The notes under the pieces are model-generated. The model saw only the letters and a program-made list of their open reading frames with translations, did no database searches and was not told where the DNA came from. A DNA stretch of 36,363 bases, taken from Gammaproteobacteria bacterium. GTDB lineage: Bacteria > Pseudomonadota > Gammaproteobacteria > Steroidobacterales > Woeseiaceae. Where the stretch lies: contig JAUHZT010000017.1 of the NCBI GenBank assembly GCA_030425905.1, positions 1 through 36,363 on the forward strand, in the 5' to 3' direction. Positions 5,807-27,745 of this stretch are shown here, piece by piece (position 1 is the stretch's first letter; the number at the start of each line of letters is the position of its first letter). The translations under genes and the position numbers were made by a program.

Positions 5807-5884
5807 CAACAACGGCCGCTTTCCCTAGTACTCTTGGCCCCTCTAACGGTCGAAATTGAATGTTTTGCCTGTGGGATTACCGAC

Positions 5885-6415
5885 TTGAGCGACGACGACG
5901 ACAACCTGTTCCGCAAACTGATGTCCGACACGAAACCGCTCAAGGTCGAGCCGCGCGTCGCGGCCCTCAAACGCAAGGTGAAACCACGAGCGCGCTTTAC
6001 CCGCGCTGATGAACGTGCCGCGCTGGCGGAAAGCATTGCCGGTGACATCGACGATACCGAGAAAGGCAGTGGTGAAGCGCTGCGCTTCAATCGTCCATCC
6101 GTTGGCCGCCGAACAATGCGCAAGCTTGCACGGGGCAATTTTGCGGTCCAGGCGGAGATCGACCTGCACGGCATGACGGTCGCCGAAGCGCGCCCACGAC
6201 TCGCCGATTTCATTGAAGATTCAGCGCGCAGCGGCAAACTCTGCGTCAGGGTGGTGCACGGCAAGGGGCTTGGTTCGGGAGAGCGCGGCGCTGTGTTGAA
6301 ATCGAGCGTCAACCACTGGTTACGGCGCTGGGACCGGGTGCTGGCCTTCGTTTCGACACGCCAGGTCGATGGCGGTACCGGCGCCCTCTACGTCCTGCTC
6401 AGGGGCGGTCTGTAA
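5885..6415 (+). CDS. Smr/MutS2-family small domain protein (SmrA/YfcN-like)
   Basis: A 176-residue protein with a C-terminal Smr domain, found in MutS2 and in stand-alone proteins with nuclease activity on DNA or RNA; the substrate here is unknown. Signature motifs are EIDLHGMTVAEA (about 91-102) and VRVVHGKGLGSG (about 122-133), followed by the ending GGTGALYVLLR. The N-terminus is a charged, probably flexible arm (DDDDNLFRKLM). The frame opens at TTG 5834, but TTG 5885 has GGGA eight bases upstream and matches the N-terminus of SmrA-type homologues, so I prefer it. It is the only plus-strand gene inside the long minus-strand block. It overlaps the end of truD tail to tail by 17 bases. Confidence 0.85.
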   Translation: MSDDDDNLFRKLMSDTKPLKVEPRVAALKRKVKPRARFTRADERAALAESIAGDIDDTEKGSGEALRFNRPSVGRRTMRKLARGNFAVQAEIDLHGMTVAEARPRLADFIEDSARSGKLCVRVVHGKGLGSGERGAVLKSSVNHWLRRWDRVLAFVSTRQVDGGTGALYVLLRGGL

Positions 6416-7436
6416 GCAGTTCCCGAATCACGCTCGTTGCAAAGGCTCCCTTGGGCAAGCGGAAGGACAGCCAGAAAATACCCTCGTCGAATTCCAGCGA
6501 GGTGTCGGCAAGCCGCAGGCGCAACGGGCGACTGTCAGCCGCAATGCGCGCGTTCACAAGCCCTGCACAGAGCGCCGCGTGACCTGCAACGGCCTCGGCC
6601 TCAATGGCGGCAGCGGCACCGGACGTCAGCGGCGCACCATCGCCCCACAGCGTGGCTGCAGGATGAATATCGAACGCCGCGCACCGTGCAACGAGCGTTT
6701 CATCGATTGCCGCAACGCTGAATACACTGCGTGAGCCGTCAAGATTCGCGAGATCGCCCTCAAGCAGACGGTCCCAGGTGCCCGCGCTAACGCGTGCGGC
6801 GAGAATCTCGTTGAACAGGAAAGAGCGTGCTGCGGAAATGGCGATGCTGCGTTGCTCGCGCCTGACCCGTTTGCCGGACAATACATCGCGCGCCAATGCG
6901 AGATTGTTGCCGTTACGGCCGAAGCGTTGCGGTCCAAAGTAATTGGGAATGCCGCCGGCTACGATATGTTGCCAGCGCACTTGCAATGCGGCCCGATCGG
7001 CACTCGTCAGGTCTGCGCGCAAACCGATGCGAAAGTGATTGGCGACATGGGCACCGCGTTTGAGTTTTCTATTGTGCCGCTGCACATCCAGTATCCGCGC
7101 ACCCGCAACCGAGAATGCCGCCCAGTCAGTGCCATCGCGATTCGGCCGCCGCACCGTAAATGTCTGGGTGGTGACCGCGTGCCGGTCTTTCAGTCCTGCG
7201 TACCCTACGTCAAGCGACTTGATTCCCGCATGCTGCGCGAGCTTGCGGGCCAGCCAGTCGGTGTTGGTACCCGTCTTTTCAACCGTGAGCATGTCGTGCT
7301 CACCGTCGCCGCTTGCGGCAAAACCCAGTTCTTCGACAACGCGGAATTCGTCGGGTACCGCACGCATGCGGGCAGCGAACAACGGCCCGCCGTATACGCA
7401 GGGCCAGTCAGGCAGCACACTCGGGGAATCAGGCAC
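6399..7436 (-). CDS. truD: tRNA pseudouridine(13) synthase TruD
   Basis: Converts uridine 13 of tRNA to pseudouridine. The 345-residue length fits the family. The catalytic Asp lies in GYAGLKDRHAVTTQ (about 78-91, Asp84), and IPNYFGPQRFGRNGNNLALA marks the TruD-specific insertion region. The start is GTG at 7436, 32 bases after the ftsB stop. In most gammaproteobacteria ispD and ispF stand between ftsB and truD; both are absent here. The final 17 bases overlap the convergent Smr gene, so the two transcripts are complementary at their 3' ends. Confidence 0.95.
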   Translation of the reverse strand: MPDSPSVLPDWPCVYGGPLFAARMRAVPDEFRVVEELGFAASGDGEHDMLTVEKTGTNTDWLARKLAQHAGIKSLDVGYAGLKDRHAVTTQTFTVRRPNRDGTDWAAFSVAGARILDVQRHNRKLKRGAHVANHFRIGLRADLTSADRAALQVRWQHIVAGGIPNYFGPQRFGRNGNNLALARDVLSGKRVRREQRSIAISAARSFLFNEILAARVSAGTWDRLLEGDLANLDGSRSVFSVAAIDETLVARCAAFDIHPAATLWGDGAPLTSGAAAAIEAEAVAGHAALCAGLVNARIAADSRPLRLRLADTSLEFDEGIFWLSFRLPKGAFATSVIRELLTDRP

Positions 7437-7468
7437 GGCGGCGGCTTGGCGTGTCCGGCTATGAGTTC

Positions 7469-7756
7469 TTAGTACGCGCGATCAGCGACTGATACAACCT
7501 GGTAAAAGGTCTCGCTTGCGCCAATCAGGCCAAGGTCGGTGCGCGCGCGTTCCTCCGCCGCTTCGAGCCCCTGCTTCAGATTGACAACCTCCGCATCCAG
7601 CGCGGCGTTGCGCGCGCGCAATTCCTCATTCAACGCACTTTGTTCGGCCACGGCCTCGCGCAACTTGAGCGTCTTGCGATAGCCATCGCTGGAGAACATC
7701 AGCTCGCCCAACAGAAACGCTGCCGCCGTCGCCAGGATTACGAGCATCCACCGCAT
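7469..7756 (-). CDS. ftsB: Cell division protein FtsB
   Basis: A bitopic septum protein that joins FtsL and FtsQ and helps activate septal wall synthesis. It has 95 residues: a short cytoplasmic start, one membrane segment (about 4-20), and a periplasmic coiled coil (about 30-70). The conserved C-terminal block ARTDLGLIGASETFYQVV resembles E. coli AREELGMxxxGETFxRLV. A TTG at 7765 would add three residues; ATG 7756 is preferred although no clear Shine-Dalgarno sequence is seen. It sits directly downstream of eno as in most relatives, 82 bases away with a hairpin between. It is followed by truD rather than ispD. Confidence 0.92.
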   Translation of the reverse strand: MRWMLVILATAAAFLLGELMFSSDGYRKTLKLREAVAEQSALNEELRARNAALDAEVVNLKQGLEAAEERARTDLGLIGASETFYQVVSVADRAY

Positions 7757-7780
7757 TGAACTCAAAACCGATTCCCCAAG

Positions 7781-21750: not shown

Positions 21751-24162
21751 TTAAAACGCTTGACCAATAGAAAACTGGAATCGTTCCAGTTCATCTCCGT
21801 AATACCTGTCGTTTCCATCGTACGCATTCAACGGGTACGCATAGCTGAAGCGGAACAGCCCGAGCGGCGCCAGCCATTCGACACCAATTCCAACCGACCC
21901 GCGAAGTTCATCGAATTCAGGCTTGTACTCCATTGGCGAGCCGAGCTTGTCCGTGAATTGCACCTCGCCGGTGTTAAATACGTTGCCAAAATCATAGAAC
22001 AACGTGGCTCGTGCCTGACTTGCCCACTTGTCCGGAAGCGGCAGTATAAGCTCTAGCTGGTTTGCAACCAACACATTACCGCCGTAGGGGTTGCCGCGAC
22101 TGTCGCGGGGACCGAGGTAAGACTCCCGGAAACCGCGCACAGACTGGGGCCCACCGCCATAAAACTGCTTATAGGGTGGCAACGCCGTGGTGTCACCCAT
22201 GGCCTCACCGATACCTATTTCCGAATTAAAGCGCACTACCCATTTGTTGGTGATCGGGAAGTATTTGGTAAAGCTGTATCGGGCCGTGTAGAACTCGACA
22301 TCGCTGCCCGGTACCGCCACGCTGAAGTACAATTGCTGGCGCGTGCCACGGTTCGCAAACAGGGCCCGGTTGCGGCTGTCATAGCTCCAGCCGGCCAACA
22401 GCTCGAACGTGTCGTATTCACTTCCCTGAAAGGTAAAACCGCCTACGTTTTCAACAAAGGCATTGCCGTTGCTCGATACCCAGTCAATGGCCTGCTGGGT
22501 ACTGTTCTGCGAGGTGGCAAGTTCGGCGTGCTGGTAGGACAGGCCAAGACTGATTGACTGGTACTCGCCGATCGGGTAGCCATAGTCGACCGAGGCACCC
22601 GCTGTGGTCGTCGAGAAGTCTGACGAGGCCGACGTAAACTGGGTGATATCCCGATAGCTAACTGACACCGTTCGGCGAATGCCGTCAATCGTGCGGTATG
22701 GGTCGGTATGCGAGAGGCTGTAGAGCTTCGAGTAACGCCCGGAATTCAGCTCCAGTGCCACGCGATTGCCCGTGCCGAGGAAATTGGTGTGCACGATACT
22801 GCCGTTCAGCAACAGCTTCTGCGATTCGGAATAACCAACACCACCCGAAAACTGTCCGGGCATCCGGTATTCGAGGTCAAAATCGACGTCAACAAGATCC
22901 GGACTACCGGGTACCGGTACGTTTTCGACTTCTACGTTCTCGACATACGGCAAACGCTGCAGGCGTACCTTGGAACGATCGATCAGCAGGTTTGAAAGAT
23001 AGGCGCCCTCCATCTGCCGGATTTCACGCCGCAGGACTTCGTCCTCTACCTGGTCGACACCGTTGAAATTTATTCGGCGCACATAGACCCGGCTCTTCGG
23101 GTCGACAAAGAAGGTTATCTCAGCGGTTTTTGCTTCATGGTCGAGGTCCCACACAGGCTCAACCTCGGCATTGGCATAGCCTTCTTCGCCAAGCCGCAGC
23201 GTCATGTATTCACTGGTACGTGTCAGCAGCCCCTGGTTAAACGTGGAACCCGGTTGCGCAAGTATCAGCTGGCGCAGGAAAGCCTCCGGTATCACCATGT
23301 CGCCAACCAGCTTCACGTCGGAAACCGTGTATTGATCGCCCTCTTCCACGGCAATCGTTACAAACATGTCTTTCTTGTTGGGTGAAATAGCGACCTGCAC
23401 AGATTCTTCGCGATAGTCCGCGTAGCCGCGGTCCATGTAGAAAGATCGCAGTGTTTCCAGGTCGCCCTGCAACGCTTCTTTTGAATAGCGATCGTCCTGG
23501 CGGATCCACGACAGCCAATTCGCCGTGTCGAGCGTAAAGTCCTCGCGAATCTCTTTCTCCGAGAACGAGGCATTGCCGACGATATTCACCTGCCGGATTT
23601 TTGCCCGATCGCCTTCCTTTACATCAATCTTGACGCGTACCGTGTTGTTCGGCCGGTCGAGTACCGTGGTCTTGATATCGACACCGTACTTGCCTCGGTC
23701 GTAATACTGCTCGCGCAGGAACATTTCGACGTTATCGAGCACCGAGCGGTCAAAGGTACGGCCTTTGGCCAATCCGACCCCGCGCAACGATTCCATCAGG
23801 TCCTCGGTCTTGATGTCCTTGTTGCCATCAATCTCAAAGCTCTCGATCGACGGCCGTTCATGGACAACGACCACAAGTACATCGCCGTCCTTGCGAATTT
23901 CGATATCGTCAAACAGGCCCTGGTCGTACAGCGACCGGATCGCCTCCTGCACGCGCACCTTGTCGACAGTATCGCCAATGTTGATCGGCAGGTAATTGAA
24001 AACCGTGCCTTCGGAAATACGTTGCAGGCCCTCAACACGCATGTCGCGGACTACGAACGGGCTGCTGAGTGCTGCAAATACCGGCGCCGCGATCGCCCAG
24101 AGTACGACCGCAGCGACCAGGCGCTGCAGCGGCCCTGAATGTGTGTAACGAGTTTGGCTCAT
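21751..24162 (-). CDS. bamA: Outer membrane protein assembly factor BamA
   Basis: The central beta-barrel of the BAM complex that inserts outer-membrane proteins. The signal peptide (LVAAVVLWAIAAPVFA) leads into five POTRA domains from FVVRDMRVEGLQRISEGTVF (about 36-55) to about 430. A 16-strand barrel follows, with the loop-6 motif QSVRGFRESYLGPRD and a C-terminal aromatic ending FSIGQAF that fits the beta-signal. The ORF could open at TTG 24180, right after the rseP TAG, but ATG 24162 (MSQTRYTHS, 803 residues) is the better start. The rseP-bamA-skp order is standard. Confidence 0.96.
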   Translation of the reverse strand: MSQTRYTHSGPLQRLVAAVVLWAIAAPVFAALSSPFVVRDMRVEGLQRISEGTVFNYLPINIGDTVDKVRVQEAIRSLYDQGLFDDIEIRKDGDVLVVVVHERPSIESFEIDGNKDIKTEDLMESLRGVGLAKGRTFDRSVLDNVEMFLREQYYDRGKYGVDIKTTVLDRPNNTVRVKIDVKEGDRAKIRQVNIVGNASFSEKEIREDFTLDTANWLSWIRQDDRYSKEALQGDLETLRSFYMDRGYADYREESVQVAISPNKKDMFVTIAVEEGDQYTVSDVKLVGDMVIPEAFLRQLILAQPGSTFNQGLLTRTSEYMTLRLGEEGYANAEVEPVWDLDHEAKTAEITFFVDPKSRVYVRRINFNGVDQVEDEVLRREIRQMEGAYLSNLLIDRSKVRLQRLPYVENVEVENVPVPGSPDLVDVDFDLEYRMPGQFSGGVGYSESQKLLLNGSIVHTNFLGTGNRVALELNSGRYSKLYSLSHTDPYRTIDGIRRTVSVSYRDITQFTSASSDFSTTTAGASVDYGYPIGEYQSISLGLSYQHAELATSQNSTQQAIDWVSSNGNAFVENVGGFTFQGSEYDTFELLAGWSYDSRNRALFANRGTRQQLYFSVAVPGSDVEFYTARYSFTKYFPITNKWVVRFNSEIGIGEAMGDTTALPPYKQFYGGGPQSVRGFRESYLGPRDSRGNPYGGNVLVANQLELILPLPDKWASQARATLFYDFGNVFNTGEVQFTDKLGSPMEYKPEFDELRGSVGIGVEWLAPLGLFRFSYAYPLNAYDGNDRYYGDELERFQFSIGQAF

Positions 24163-24180
24163 TCTCAAGTTAGGTCCCAA

Positions 24181-25536
24181 CTAGCCCAGCAAGCGGGCGA
24201 TATCATTATAAAAGGCAAAGCTCATGAGTAGCAGCAACGCAAAAATACCCACCTGTTGGCCAAGTATCTGTGCGCGCTCCGACATTGGACTGCCTTTCAG
24301 CCACTCAACGAGCTGATAAACGATCTGTCCTCCGTCGAGAACGGGCAACGGTAGCAGATTCAGCACGCCAAGGCTGATACTGACAATTGCGAGGAAGCCC
24401 AGAAAATTACCCACTCCGGCCTGCGCCGATGCACCTGCGAATTGCGCGATATTGATCGGGCCGCTGATATTCTTTATCGATACGTCGCCGGTCACCATGC
24501 GTCCGAGCATCCGCAGGGTAAAGACCGCGGTTTGCCACATTCGTTCGTTGGCATGAGCAATTGATTCCAACGGACCAAATTTGCGCAGGTAGAAATAGTC
24601 CTGGGTATTCGCCTTCGCCGCTACGCCCAATTGCCCGACCATCACGCCATCACGCTCGGTTGCGCCCAGCCGTACATCCAGCGTCAGTCGCTCCGTGCCG
24701 CGTTCAACCTCGATAACAACGTCCGCATTCGCCCGCTCGGAAACCACGGTCCGCAAGTCCGCAAAATTGCGAATCGGCAGATCGTCAATTCTTACAATCT
24801 GATCGCCTTCCTGCAGCCCACCGGCATCCGCCGCGCCGCCCGCCGTGACTTCACCGACCACCGCTGGCGGCTGCCAGGGAGCAAAGCCGAGTCCGTCGAA
24901 AAGCATGCCCGGTTCTGTCAGACGCGTTGCGTCGTTGCCGACATTGATAGTTGCCGAACGCTGGCTGCCAGATTCATTCTGCAAGCGCAACTGCACATTG
25001 CCACTGGCCACCATCTGGTCGAGCATGTTGACCAGCGCCGATTCCCAGTTGTCTGTTGTGACCGAACCGACCGCGATAATACGGTCACCTTCGCGCAGGC
25101 CCGCTTCGGCAGCGTACGAGCCCGGCTCCACTTCGCCAATGGCCGGGCGCAAGGTAGGAATGCCGTACACAAACAACATCCAGTACGCCAAGATGGCGAA
25201 CAGGAAATTGAACATCGGCCCCGCAAGCAACACGGCTATGCGTGCCGGAATGGATTTCTGATTGAAGGCGCGGCCCTCGTCACGGGGCTCGATATCCGCT
25301 TCACGGCTATCGAGAAAACGGACGTACCCACCCAGTGGAATTGCCGAAATGCAATACTCGGTGCGGTCCTCTCCGGCGCCAATGCGGGTCCAGAGTGGCT
25401 TGCCAAAGCCGATCGAGAAGCGCAGTACTTTCATGCCCATCCATCGACCTACGATGTAGTGCCCGTACTCGTGGACCGCAACCAGAATACTGATGGCCAC
25501 AATGAATGCCACGAGGCTGCTGACGGCGTCTCCCAT
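24181..25536 (-). CDS. rseP: Site-2 intramembrane protease RseP
   Basis: An inner-membrane zinc metalloprotease that cuts anti-sigma factor RseA in the sigma-E envelope stress response and clears signal-peptide remnants. It has 451 residues. Zinc motif HEYGH lies at 22-26 in the first membrane helix; the second metal motif is NLLPLPVLDGG near 400. Two periplasmic PDZ domains lie between (each with AGLREGDRI- or GGLQEGDQI-like loops). It has four predicted membrane segments. The ATG at 25536 has an excellent AGGAGG ribosome binding site about seven bases upstream. dxr, usually just before rseP, is missing; a 35-codon ORF occupies the gap after cdsA. Confidence 0.96.
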   Translation of the reverse strand: MGDAVSSLVAFIVAISILVAVHEYGHYIVGRWMGMKVLRFSIGFGKPLWTRIGAGEDRTEYCISAIPLGGYVRFLDSREADIEPRDEGRAFNQKSIPARIAVLLAGPMFNFLFAILAYWMLFVYGIPTLRPAIGEVEPGSYAAEAGLREGDRIIAVGSVTTDNWESALVNMLDQMVASGNVQLRLQNESGSQRSATINVGNDATRLTEPGMLFDGLGFAPWQPPAVVGEVTAGGAADAGGLQEGDQIVRIDDLPIRNFADLRTVVSERANADVVIEVERGTERLTLDVRLGATERDGVMVGQLGVAAKANTQDYFYLRKFGPLESIAHANERMWQTAVFTLRMLGRMVTGDVSIKNISGPINIAQFAGASAQAGVGNFLGFLAIVSISLGVLNLLPLPVLDGGQIVYQLVEWLKGSPMSERAQILGQQVGIFALLLLMSFAFYNDIARLLG

Positions 25537-25554
25537 ATTCAGTTCCTCCTGACC

Positions 25555-25662
25555 CTAGCTATTAAGTGGACTTGCAAGCGGCACCGCAGTTCCCGGCACA
25601 CGAAATTTCATCGTGGCCAAAACCGCATGAACGGTTCCTGAACGATCTGCAACGTTGCTCAT
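25555..25662 (-). CDS. Possible 35-residue ORF in the slot normally held by dxr
   Basis: On the minus strand an ATG at 25662 overlaps the cdsA stop (ATGA) and opens a 35-codon frame ending with TAG at 25557-25555, 18 bases before rseP. The peptide starts MSNVADRSGTVHAVLATMKF and ends PLASPLNS. It has no membrane segment, signal peptide or recognised motif. It may be a real coupled micropeptide, a leader that keeps ribosomes moving into rseP, or chance. I see no similarity to the DXR N-terminal GSTGSIG motif, so it does not look like a dxr remnant. Low confidence as a gene. Confidence 0.3.
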   Translation of the reverse strand: MSNVADRSGTVHAVLATMKFRVPGTAVPLASPLNS

Positions 25663-26444
25663 GTAAGCCCCAGATACGTCAGGCCCAACGCAAACAACGG
25701 CGCCGCGGCCGCAACACTGTCAATGCGATCGAGCACGCCACCGTGCCCGGGAAACAGCGACCCACTGTCTTTCACGCCGGCGGTACGCTTGAACATGCTG
25801 ACGGTGAGATCACCGACAATCGAAATGGCCGCCACGGCCAGGCAAAACGGCACCAGCACGGCAAGATCGCCCGGGACCCAGATACTGCGCACAATGATAA
25901 CGAGAACCACCAGCAGCAAGCCACCGATAACGCCCTCCCAGGTCTTGCCCGGGCTGATGCTTGGCGCCAGCTTGACCCGGCCAAAGCGCTTGCCCACGAA
26001 AAATGCACCAATATCGGCTGACCACACAATCATCAGCGCGAGCAGGAGCAACATCGCATTTTCGTTGTAGAGCAGCACCAGGGCGGCATACAGGGGCACC
26101 AGCACGAGGGCACCGCCAAGCCAGCGCAACAGCACCGGAATACGCGTCGGAAAGACGAAGGTCCAGATCAGCGCCAGCATCCACCAGCCCAGTGCAAGCA
26201 GCAGCACCCATTCCACGCCCTGCGACCAGACCAGGCCGATTCCGGCCATACAGGCGGCGATGAAGCTGACGTATACCACGCGCACCGTCGTGGAACCCGA
26301 CTCAAGAAATACTGACCACTCCCACGCGCCGGCAATGATCACGAGCGCAATGAAGAGTTCAGCTATTGCCCCCGGCAACACGAACAGCACCAGGAACAAT
26401 GCAAGTAGCGCAATCACGGCGGTGATGATGCGTTGCTTCAGCAT
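25659..26444 (-). CDS. cdsA: Phosphatidate cytidylyltransferase
   Basis: Makes CDP-diacylglycerol from phosphatidic acid and CTP, the branch point to all phospholipids. It is an integral membrane protein of 261 residues with about seven or eight hydrophobic segments. The C-terminal family signature is clear: SPGKTWEGVIGG, then MFKRTAGVKDSGSLFPGHGGVLDRIDS. A longer open frame reaches 26588, but ATG 26444 (MLKQRIITAVIAL) is the natural start and overlaps the end of uppS by seven bases. Downstream the usual dxr is absent and rseP follows. Confidence 0.95.
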   Translation of the reverse strand: MLKQRIITAVIALLALFLVLFVLPGAIAELFIALVIIAGAWEWSVFLESGSTTVRVVYVSFIAACMAGIGLVWSQGVEWVLLLALGWWMLALIWTFVFPTRIPVLLRWLGGALVLVPLYAALVLLYNENAMLLLLALMIVWSADIGAFFVGKRFGRVKLAPSISPGKTWEGVIGGLLLVVLVIIVRSIWVPGDLAVLVPFCLAVAAISIVGDLTVSMFKRTAGVKDSGSLFPGHGGVLDRIDSVAAAAPLFALGLTYLGLT

Positions 26445-27187
26445 TCCAGTGCCTCCAGTTGCTCGCCGGTATGCCCGTAACGCCGTTGCCGGCAAGCAAA
26501 AAATTCGATGGCCTTGTCGAGTTCCTGCTCCCCGAAGTCGGGCCATAATGTGTCGCAGAAATAAAGTTCTGCATAGGCCAGATTCCACAACAGAAAATTA
26601 CTGATGCGCTGTTCGCCGCCAGTGCGAATCAGCAGGTCCGGATCCGGCAAGCCCGCAAGCTGTAATTCGCCCGCTATCACGTCCTCATCGACATCGTCGG
26701 CCGCGATACTGCCGTCTGCAACTCGGCGCAGGACCCGTCGTGTCGCTTCGGTGATATCCCAACGCCCGCCGTAGGCAATAGCAACATTCAGGTGCAGACC
26801 GGTATTGCCGTGCGTGTGCGCCTCGGCGGATTCAATCTTGCGTACCAGGCTCGCCGCAAGGCGGCTACGGTCGCCGACAAATTCAAGCCTCACATTATTA
26901 CGATGCAGCTCGTCCACTTCCCGTTGCAGGGCTTCGACAAACAATCCCATCAACTTGCTGACTTCGTCAGCGGGACGACGCCAGTTTTCGCTGCTGAACG
27001 CGAAGAGCGTGAGGTACGGGATACCGCGACGTGCCGTGTGTTCGATGGTGCGACGAACGGATTTTACGCCGGCCCGGTGTCCGGCATGCCGCGGCTTGGC
27101 CCGGTTCCGCGCCCAGCGCCCGTTGCCATCCATGATGACCGCAATGTGAACCGGCAGGTTCGAGTCTGTAGCGGCAGGCTCCTGCAC
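26438..27187 (-). CDS. uppS: Undecaprenyl diphosphate synthase (cis-prenyltransferase)
   Basis: Extends farnesyl diphosphate with eight isopentenyl units to make the lipid carrier for peptidoglycan and O-antigen. It has 249 residues. The catalytic Asp is Asp20 in HIAVIMDGNGRWA; GHRAGVKSVR binds the diphosphate. FAFSSENWRRP and the C-terminal RTGGEQRISNFLLWNLAYAELYF complete the signature. It starts with GTG at 27187 directly after the frr TGA and overlaps cdsA by seven bases. It requires IPP, so an isoprenoid pathway must exist although the MEP genes usually found in this region are missing. Confidence 0.96.
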   Translation of the reverse strand: MQEPAATDSNLPVHIAVIMDGNGRWARNRAKPRHAGHRAGVKSVRRTIEHTARRGIPYLTLFAFSSENWRRPADEVSKLMGLFVEALQREVDELHRNNVRLEFVGDRSRLAASLVRKIESAEAHTHGNTGLHLNVAIAYGGRWDITEATRRVLRRVADGSIAADDVDEDVIAGELQLAGLPDPDLLIRTGGEQRISNFLLWNLAYAELYFCDTLWPDFGEQELDKAIEFFACRQRRYGHTGEQLEALEC

Positions 27188-27745
27188 TCAGATTTCCAGC
27201 AGCTCGGCCTCTTTCTCGGCCAGAACCTGATCGATCTCGGCAATGTACTTGTCGGTGATCGTCTGGATTTCATCTTCTGCGCGATGCTCATCGTCTTCGC
27301 CGACCAGCTTTTCCTTGAGCAGGTCCTTCAGGTCGCCGATAGCGTCACGCCGCACATTACGAATGGCAATCCTGCCGCCTTCGGCCTCGTTGCGCACTAC
27401 GCGAATCATGTCCTTGCGTCGCTCTTCGGTCAGCGGCGGCAACGGCACGCGAATAACGGTACCGGCGGACTGTGGATTGAGACCGAGGTCTGAATTGATG
27501 ATCGCCTTCTCGACGACCGCGACCATGTCTTTTTCCCACGGTGTGACGATAAGCGTTCTTGAGTCTTCCACCCCGACATTCGACACCTGGTTCAGCGGTG
27601 TCTGGCTGCCGTAGTATTCGACAGTGATGTGATCGAGCAGACTCGTGTGCGCACGGCCCGTGCGAATCTTGGTCATTTCGTGCTTCAGCGACGCAACGCT
27701 CTTGGACATACGATCGGCTGCGTCCTTTTTAATCTCTTCCAACAC
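27188..27745 (-). CDS. frr: Ribosome recycling factor
   Basis: Splits the post-termination ribosome together with EF-G. The 185 residues match the family length exactly. Typical blocks are [10 protein letters not shown]-like [68 protein letters not shown] and the C-terminal helix [23 protein letters not shown]. The start is GTG at 27745 with AAGGAG seven bases upstream. It lies 11 bases after pyrH and ends right before the uppS start. Confidence 0.96.

Follow-up and report, generated by a model that had tools for sequence, protein, structure and literature searches.

The window, by which we mean the whole stretch of 36,363 nucleotides that was analysed, sits on contig C220 of a 3.38-Mb draft genome (240 contigs, 88.8% complete, 4.9% contaminated) of a gammaproteobacterium of the family Woeseiaceae. 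Genes in the window were named by NCBIfam models; for cdsA, ftsB and truD the name is that of the best-matching model, whose curated cut-off the score does not reach. The window carries a frr-uppS-cdsA-rseP-bamA run on the minus strand and a second region that holds eno, ftsB, truD and surE (Table 1). For cdsA, the start was placed at the beginning of the family match, the mechanical open reading frame extending to 26588.

Table 1. Features flanking the two empty slots in the window, and the mevalonate gene cluster on contig C187 (locus L013) of the same genome
Feature	Location	Strand	Family match (bits; curated cut-off)
truD	window 6399..7436	-	PRK00984, 393.6 (below cut-off 413)
empty ispD-ispF slot (32-bp ftsB-truD gap)	window 7437..7468	.	
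ftsB	window 7469..7765	-	PRK00888, 82.1 (below cut-off 101)
bamA	window 21751..24180	-	TIGR03303, 763.2 (cut-off 297.15)
rseP	window 24181..25536	-	TIGR00054, 354.6 (cut-off 147.55)
empty dxr slot (122-bp cdsA-rseP gap)	window 25537..25658	.	no dxr remnant
cdsA	window 25659..26444 (stop at 25659)	-	PRK11624, E 9.7e-49, 166.3 (below cut-off 385), ORF residues 49-301
uppS	window 26438..27187	-	TIGR00055, 284.3 (cut-off 109.55)
frr	window 27188..27745	-	TIGR00496, 231.4 (cut-off 149.1)
HMGS-like	C187 5286-6827	+	best family TIGR01835, 160.8 (below cut-off 360.35)
IDI type I	C187 6824-7399	-	TIGR02150, 151.6 (cut-off 105.8)
HMGR-MvK fusion, 763 aa	C187 7396-9687	-	HMGR part TIGR00532, 364.4 (cut-off 259.95)
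MvK part of fusion	residues 463-733	-	TIGR00549, 226.6 (cut-off 163.05)
PMK-like	C187 9602-10507	-	best family TIGR01220, 95.8 (below cut-off 165.7)
MDD	C187 10504-11541	-	TIGR01240, 241.6 (cut-off 171.35)
FPP synthase	C187, ends 12510	+	NF045485, 331.8 (cut-off 275)

The initial annotation had observed that dxr is missing from an otherwise ordered run, and this was borne out, all other genes of the run being present in order with only the 122-bp gap between cdsA and rseP. Furthermore, relatives belonging to other families of the order show the arrangement that it had taken as usual, uppS-cdsA-dxr-rseP, at all 10 dxr loci detected in them. Nucleotide and six-frame comparison of the gap with the dxr loci of these 10 relatives revealed no dxr relic beyond chance: the lowest E value against the loci (0.004 over 22 residues) falls outside the dxr part, and against dxr proper the lowest values were 0.049 opposite to the operon orientation and 0.73 in the right orientation. 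A search of the rest of the window with the DXR of one relative gave nothing (best E 0.26), and a comparison of cdsA-uppS with E. coli DNA likewise found nothing. The empty cdsA-rseP junction of a mevalonate genome was read in the window only.

The absence of ispD and ispF from the window, also claimed earlier, holds as well: eno, ftsB, truD and surE are present, and just 32 bp separate ftsB from truD. The order eno-ftsB-ispF-truD, with ispF between ftsB and truD, was found in seven of 10 ispF loci of relatives from other families of the order; of the remaining three, two show no truD inside the fetched 4 kb and one starts at a contig end. Comparison with these relatives shows the dxr and ispD-ispF absences to be losses rather than an alternative ancestral arrangement. 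An SmrA/SmrB-like endonuclease gene (below cut-off) is located between truD and surE on the opposite strand (window 5834-6415, plus strand).

Families of the MEP pathway were sought singly by profile across a panel of 60 genomes, comprising the window's own genome (G000), 36 other members of its genus and 23 genomes from 15 other families of the order. The match limit was E 0.001 for DXR, IspG, IspH and IspF, and DXS was counted as present only above its cut-off of 465.95 bits. In the window's genome DXR (TIGR00243, 0 candidates), IspG, IspH and IspF gave no match and DXS none above cut-off, and the same held for all 37 genus members, of which 10 have a listed completeness of at least 95%. DXR, IspH and IspF were present in 10 panel genomes each (one IspF being a fragment below cut-off), and IspG and DXS in 11 each. 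The positives always came from the same 11 genomes (G037, G039, G042, G044, G045, G046, G049, G052, G057, G058 and G059), with single misses in G042 for DXR and IspF and in G052 for IspH. Weak DXS matches occurred in all 60 genomes, as expected because DXS is a relative of transketolase; outside the 11 MEP genomes the best of them reached 173 bits, against the cut-off of 465.95. From these searches the MEP pathway, with DXR, IspF, IspG, IspH and DXS all missing, appears to have been lost in the lineage of the window, and uppS is kept in the window although the pathway is gone. In this genome the loss extends to dxs, which bears on vitamin B6.

The initial annotation had allowed for a simple relocation, with an intact dxr and the other MEP genes elsewhere in the genome and no mevalonate genes. 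The fragmentation of the draft into 240 contigs could have hidden such genes in assembly gaps. However, the absences recur throughout the genus, its 10 most complete listed members included, applied to other families the same searches recover MEP genes in 10 or 11 genomes, and mevalonate genes are present, so that the relocation reading fails on both halves and is hardly credible.

Its preferred proposal, that the MEP route had been lost and that mevalonate or another source supplies IPP, is in agreement with both the missing MEP matches and a mevalonate gene cluster found in the same genome. This cluster contains an HMGS-like gene, HMGR, mevalonate kinase (MvK), a PMK-like kinase, diphosphomevalonate decarboxylase (MDD) and an isopentenyl diphosphate isomerase (IDI), which is of type I (Nudix) and not of the type II that had been suggested. 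Because the HMGS-like and PMK-like proteins score below curated cut-offs, they were assigned by best family and position, and for the latter also by weak homology to solved kinases. The HMGS-like protein scores above cut-off for Pfam PF01154 and PF08540 and gives a partial alignment to solved HMGS; the PMK-like protein gives a weak match to solved Lin0012 and PMKs. HMGR and MvK are joined in a single protein. Its HMGR part aligns with solved class II HMGR over 420 residues and keeps the catalytic Glu, Lys, Asp and His of HMGR, which are invariant in six fusions, and its C-terminal part aligns with solved mevalonate kinases. Among the structure matches listed there was no solved chain spanning both HMGR and MvK domains.

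HMGR (PF00368) was found in 51 of the 60 panel genomes: in 48 of the 49 without MEP genes, the miss being a genus member that is 73% complete (G025), and in three of the 11 MEP genomes (G039, G044 and G045), in frames of 391-453 aa. HMGR frames of at least 617 aa, long enough for the fusion, were present in 46 of the 49 genomes without MEP genes and in none of the 11 with them, so that MEP and long-framed HMGR exclude each other cleanly across the panel. The fused MvK itself was read in seven of these 46 (G000, G026, G029, G040, G041, G050 and G056), and the others were judged by frame length. In G006 and G019 HMGR was found in two pieces on different contigs. Eight genus members (G022, G036, G012, G029, G023, G035, G015 and G002; loci L001, L002, L004-L007, L010 and L012) carry extra HMGRs in frames of 389-479 aa, which outscore their long-framed HMGR. 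In G056 (L018, 8671-12066) PMK-like, HMGR and MvK matches lie in one 1131-aa frame, apparently a three-enzyme fusion, and the HMGR of G043, which belongs to the family of G056, lies in a frame of 1413 aa.

In order to place the fusion, named genomes were scanned with the alignment of the six fusions, which yielded at least 578 stretches that code for a protein related to the query. Since the patterns used for scanning fall within HMGR, some of these stretches may encode unfused proteins. The best 80 of the at least 578 matches align over both domains. The closest among these 80 come from Woeseiaceae and gammaproteobacterial bins (up to 62% identity), and the other hosts include Wenzhouxiangella, Dyella, Rhodanobacter, Nevskia, Salinisphaera, Pseudomonadales bins and Calditrichota. 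Oddly placed bins named Nakamurella, Planctomycetota and Melioribacteraceae may represent mis-binned contigs and were set aside. In a protein tree of 78 of 87 loci (seven from the panel and 80 named ones preselected for matching the fusion) the window genome's fusion groups with UBA1844, inside the group of Woeseiaceae and gammaproteobacterial bins; the other nine loci (L031, L062, L078, L084, L085, L101, L105, L108 and L109), for which a motif filter detected no single frame with both motifs, were left out. HMGR and MvK lie side by side in all 87 loci, as follows from how the loci were chosen, accompanied by PMK in 73, IDI-1 in 73, MDD in 70, HMGS within reach in 28 and FPP synthase in 23, counts to be read with many loci ending at contig ends. 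Of the 73 loci with PMK, all but L077 have the PMK match beside HMGR (72 loci).

DXS was tested in 20 of the 80 named fusion genomes, and none was detected above cut-off in 14, among them three Wenzhouxiangella strains and Salinisphaera halophila. The six with DXS were three Dyella, Rhodanobacter lindaniclasticus and two bins, so that the operon and at least DXS occur together in some hosts. In Rhodanobacter lindaniclasticus and Dyella (G063-G066), which have both the HMGR-MvK operon and DXS, the two routes may coexist.

It is also conceivable that isoprenoids are scavenged and that the mevalonate genes serve another role, such as mevalonate breakdown. The matched HMGR model bears the name 'degradative', extra HMGRs in shorter frames occur in some genus members, and HMGS and PMK score below cut-off, all of which would suit such a role. 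The presence of MDD and IDI in the cluster points instead to synthesis; an FPP synthase gene adjoins them, uppS is retained, and a long HMGR frame and the MEP pathway are mutually exclusive in the panel; we therefore regard scavenging as very improbable.

We are strongly confident in the explanation that a mevalonate operon was acquired in the ancestor of the lineage and that the MEP pathway, including dxs, disappeared, so that IPP would now be derived from acetyl-CoA; the gene content, the cluster, the fusion and their distribution are observed, and the order of gain and loss, like the activities of the enzymes, is inferred. Upon this loss the conserved slots of dxr and ispD-ispF would have been vacated, and the genes on either side would have moved together. 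In the predicted route, HMGS would make HMG-CoA starting from acetyl-CoA, and the fused HMGR-MvK would convert it to mevalonate and then to phosphorylated mevalonate. The PMK-like kinase would put on the second phosphate, and MDD would form IPP, from which the type I IDI would produce DMAPP. Both products would be consumed by FPP synthase and UppS.

The loss of DXS raises a question on vitamin B6, as passages of two papers describe DXP, the product of DXS, as feeding the MEP pathway as well as vitamin B6 and thiamin synthesis (PMC13001223, PMC9997740). Replacement of PdxJ by PdxST might have been expected after DXS loss, and the opposite was found. DXS was above cut-off in none of the 49 genomes without MEP genes. 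PdxJ was above cut-off in 57 of the 60 panel genomes and in 47 of the 49 DXS-less ones (misses G006 and G054, the third miss, G042, being an MEP genome), PdxA in 58 of 60 and in 47 of 49 (misses G048 and G054), and both together in 46 of 49. The DXP-independent PdxS was above cut-off in none of the 60 genomes, and six of seven weak PdxS matches overlap ThiG genes. Among control genomes PdxJ was detected in four, all of which were also positive for DXR. In the genome of the window PdxJ scores 297.9 bits (cut-off 192.75), with matches to solved PdxJ structures across nearly its whole length, and PdxA 378.4 bits (cut-off 290.35). In an alignment of PdxJ from 16 genomes, the proteins of six DXS-less genomes (G000, G033, G034, G026, G050 and G048) resemble those of five MEP relatives, with ungapped motifs, and a divergent PdxJ type is present in DXS-less G040, G043, G051, G055 and G056. 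In G002, G004, G007 and other genus members the PdxA model was matched in two pieces with profile positions of about 46-64 missing, likely a shared deletion of some 20 residues.

ThiG also uses DXP. Full ThiG (366-374 bits) was found in DXS-less G040, G043, G051 and G056 and in MEP genomes G046 and G059; fragments barely above a low cut-off were found in DXS-less G038 and G050, and no genus member was above cut-off. The four DXS-less genomes with full ThiG (L145, L148, L149 and L150) also carry the divergent PdxJ (L158-L161), as if both had been acquired later.

Candidates for another source of DXP were examined. Of the two weak DXS-like matches in the window's own genome, one proved to be a transketolase (TIGR00232, 978.8 bits) and the other an E1-beta-type protein. 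In G014 (L167), G038 (L168) and G043 (L169) the C-terminal half of DXS was matched at 140-173 bits by frames of 358-370 aa, the strongest matches apart from true DXS; these look like split transketolases because the adjacent gene matches Transketolase_N in all three. No such match was among those listed for the other DXS-less genomes, and such pairs were rejected as a general source. The neighbours of pdxJ in the window's genome are ordinary, namely recO, a predicted 3'-5' exonuclease (alike in G026 and G050), rlmD, nagZ and methylthioinosine phosphorylase.

The source of DXP for B6 would be a side reaction, a dedicated enzyme or an outside supply, and at the level of sequence the gap is real. 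We favor a small supply for PdxJ from a source other than DXS, most likely through a side reaction of an enzyme that uses thiamine diphosphate, for instance pyruvate dehydrogenase. According to passages of one study, E. coli without DXS still holds trace DXP, though not enough to support growth that depends on isoprenoids, and its level can be increased by mutant forms of pyruvate dehydrogenase or RibB (PMC3424233). We would expect B6 to need far less DXP than isoprenoids. An unrecognised dedicated enzyme is a possible alternative toward which we lean less. The near-universal retention of PdxJ and PdxA in DXS-less genomes with no PdxS above cut-off, the alignment, ungapped in the motifs, of PdxJ from six DXS-less genomes with those of five MEP relatives, the own PdxJ passing its cut-offs, and full ThiG in four DXS-less genomes all speak for it. 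It is opposed by the lack of a candidate among the own DXS-like matches or the genes beside pdxJ, and by the trace DXP that E. coli forms without DXS (PMC3424233).

A survey of MEP species identified 181 candidates lacking Dxs and judged the existence of an alternative probable, with no word beginning pyridox or thiamin in its main text (PMC10663253). A B6 pathway survey discussed holes at Epd, PdxB, SerC and PdxH and, in 12 of its 22 passages, none at Dxs, and the word mevalonate is absent from its main text (PMC9997740). The present genomes resemble those MEP species in having DXP-using enzymes without DXS, which implies another DXP source (PMC10663253, in part). They differ in that DXP serves isoprenoids there and, because the MEP pathway is gone, vitamin B6 (and thiazole in a few) here.

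Mevalonate use by a minority of bacteria, operon clustering and suggested transfer are known (PMC13001223, in the sections seen). As in the classical bacterial pathway of Staphylococcus, Streptococcus and Borrelia covered there (PMC13001223), HMGS-like, HMGR, MvK, PMK-like, MDD and IDI genes are clustered and MEP genes were not found. Unlike in that pathway, HMGR and MvK here form a single protein of 763 aa, the HMGS and PMK sequences are divergent, and the genes reside in a gammaproteobacterium whose order also includes relatives that use MEP. Enterococcal mvaE is a thiolase-HMGR fusion. The present protein is similar in that HMGR is fused to another pathway enzyme, but its C-terminal partner is mevalonate kinase, which acts in the following step. 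In Legionella, PMK and mostly HMGS were lacking by homology criteria, as stated in part of the same review (PMC13001223); the divergent HMGS and PMK in this genome suggest that such criteria can miss proteins of this kind. Among titles and abstract openings, with incomplete coverage and hence little weight, no report was found of mevalonate use in Woeseiaceae, of an HMGR-mevalonate kinase fusion, or of PdxJ without DXS in mevalonate bacteria.

Pathway replacement itself is a known kind of event, and the points of interest are the fused operon and the DXP gap. Within one gammaproteobacterial order, an essential pathway appears to have been exchanged completely and exclusively, and as MEP and mevalonate members occur even within one family (f4, with G039 and G053, respectively), gain and loss could be ordered. 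The HMGR-MvK fusion is a predicted two-step enzyme of possible use in engineering. With DXS lost and both PdxJ and PdxA retained, alternative DXP synthesis becomes a testable question, to which the strain-named fusion genomes without DXS above cut-off, those of the three Wenzhouxiangella and Salinisphaera halophila, may be relevant. We suggest tentatively, while holding it somewhat doubtful, that across a large group of DXS-less, mevalonate-using gammaproteobacteria PdxJ is supplied by a dedicated enzyme that forms DXP; if so, such genomes would be a natural screen for the 'alternative to Dxs' predicted by others.
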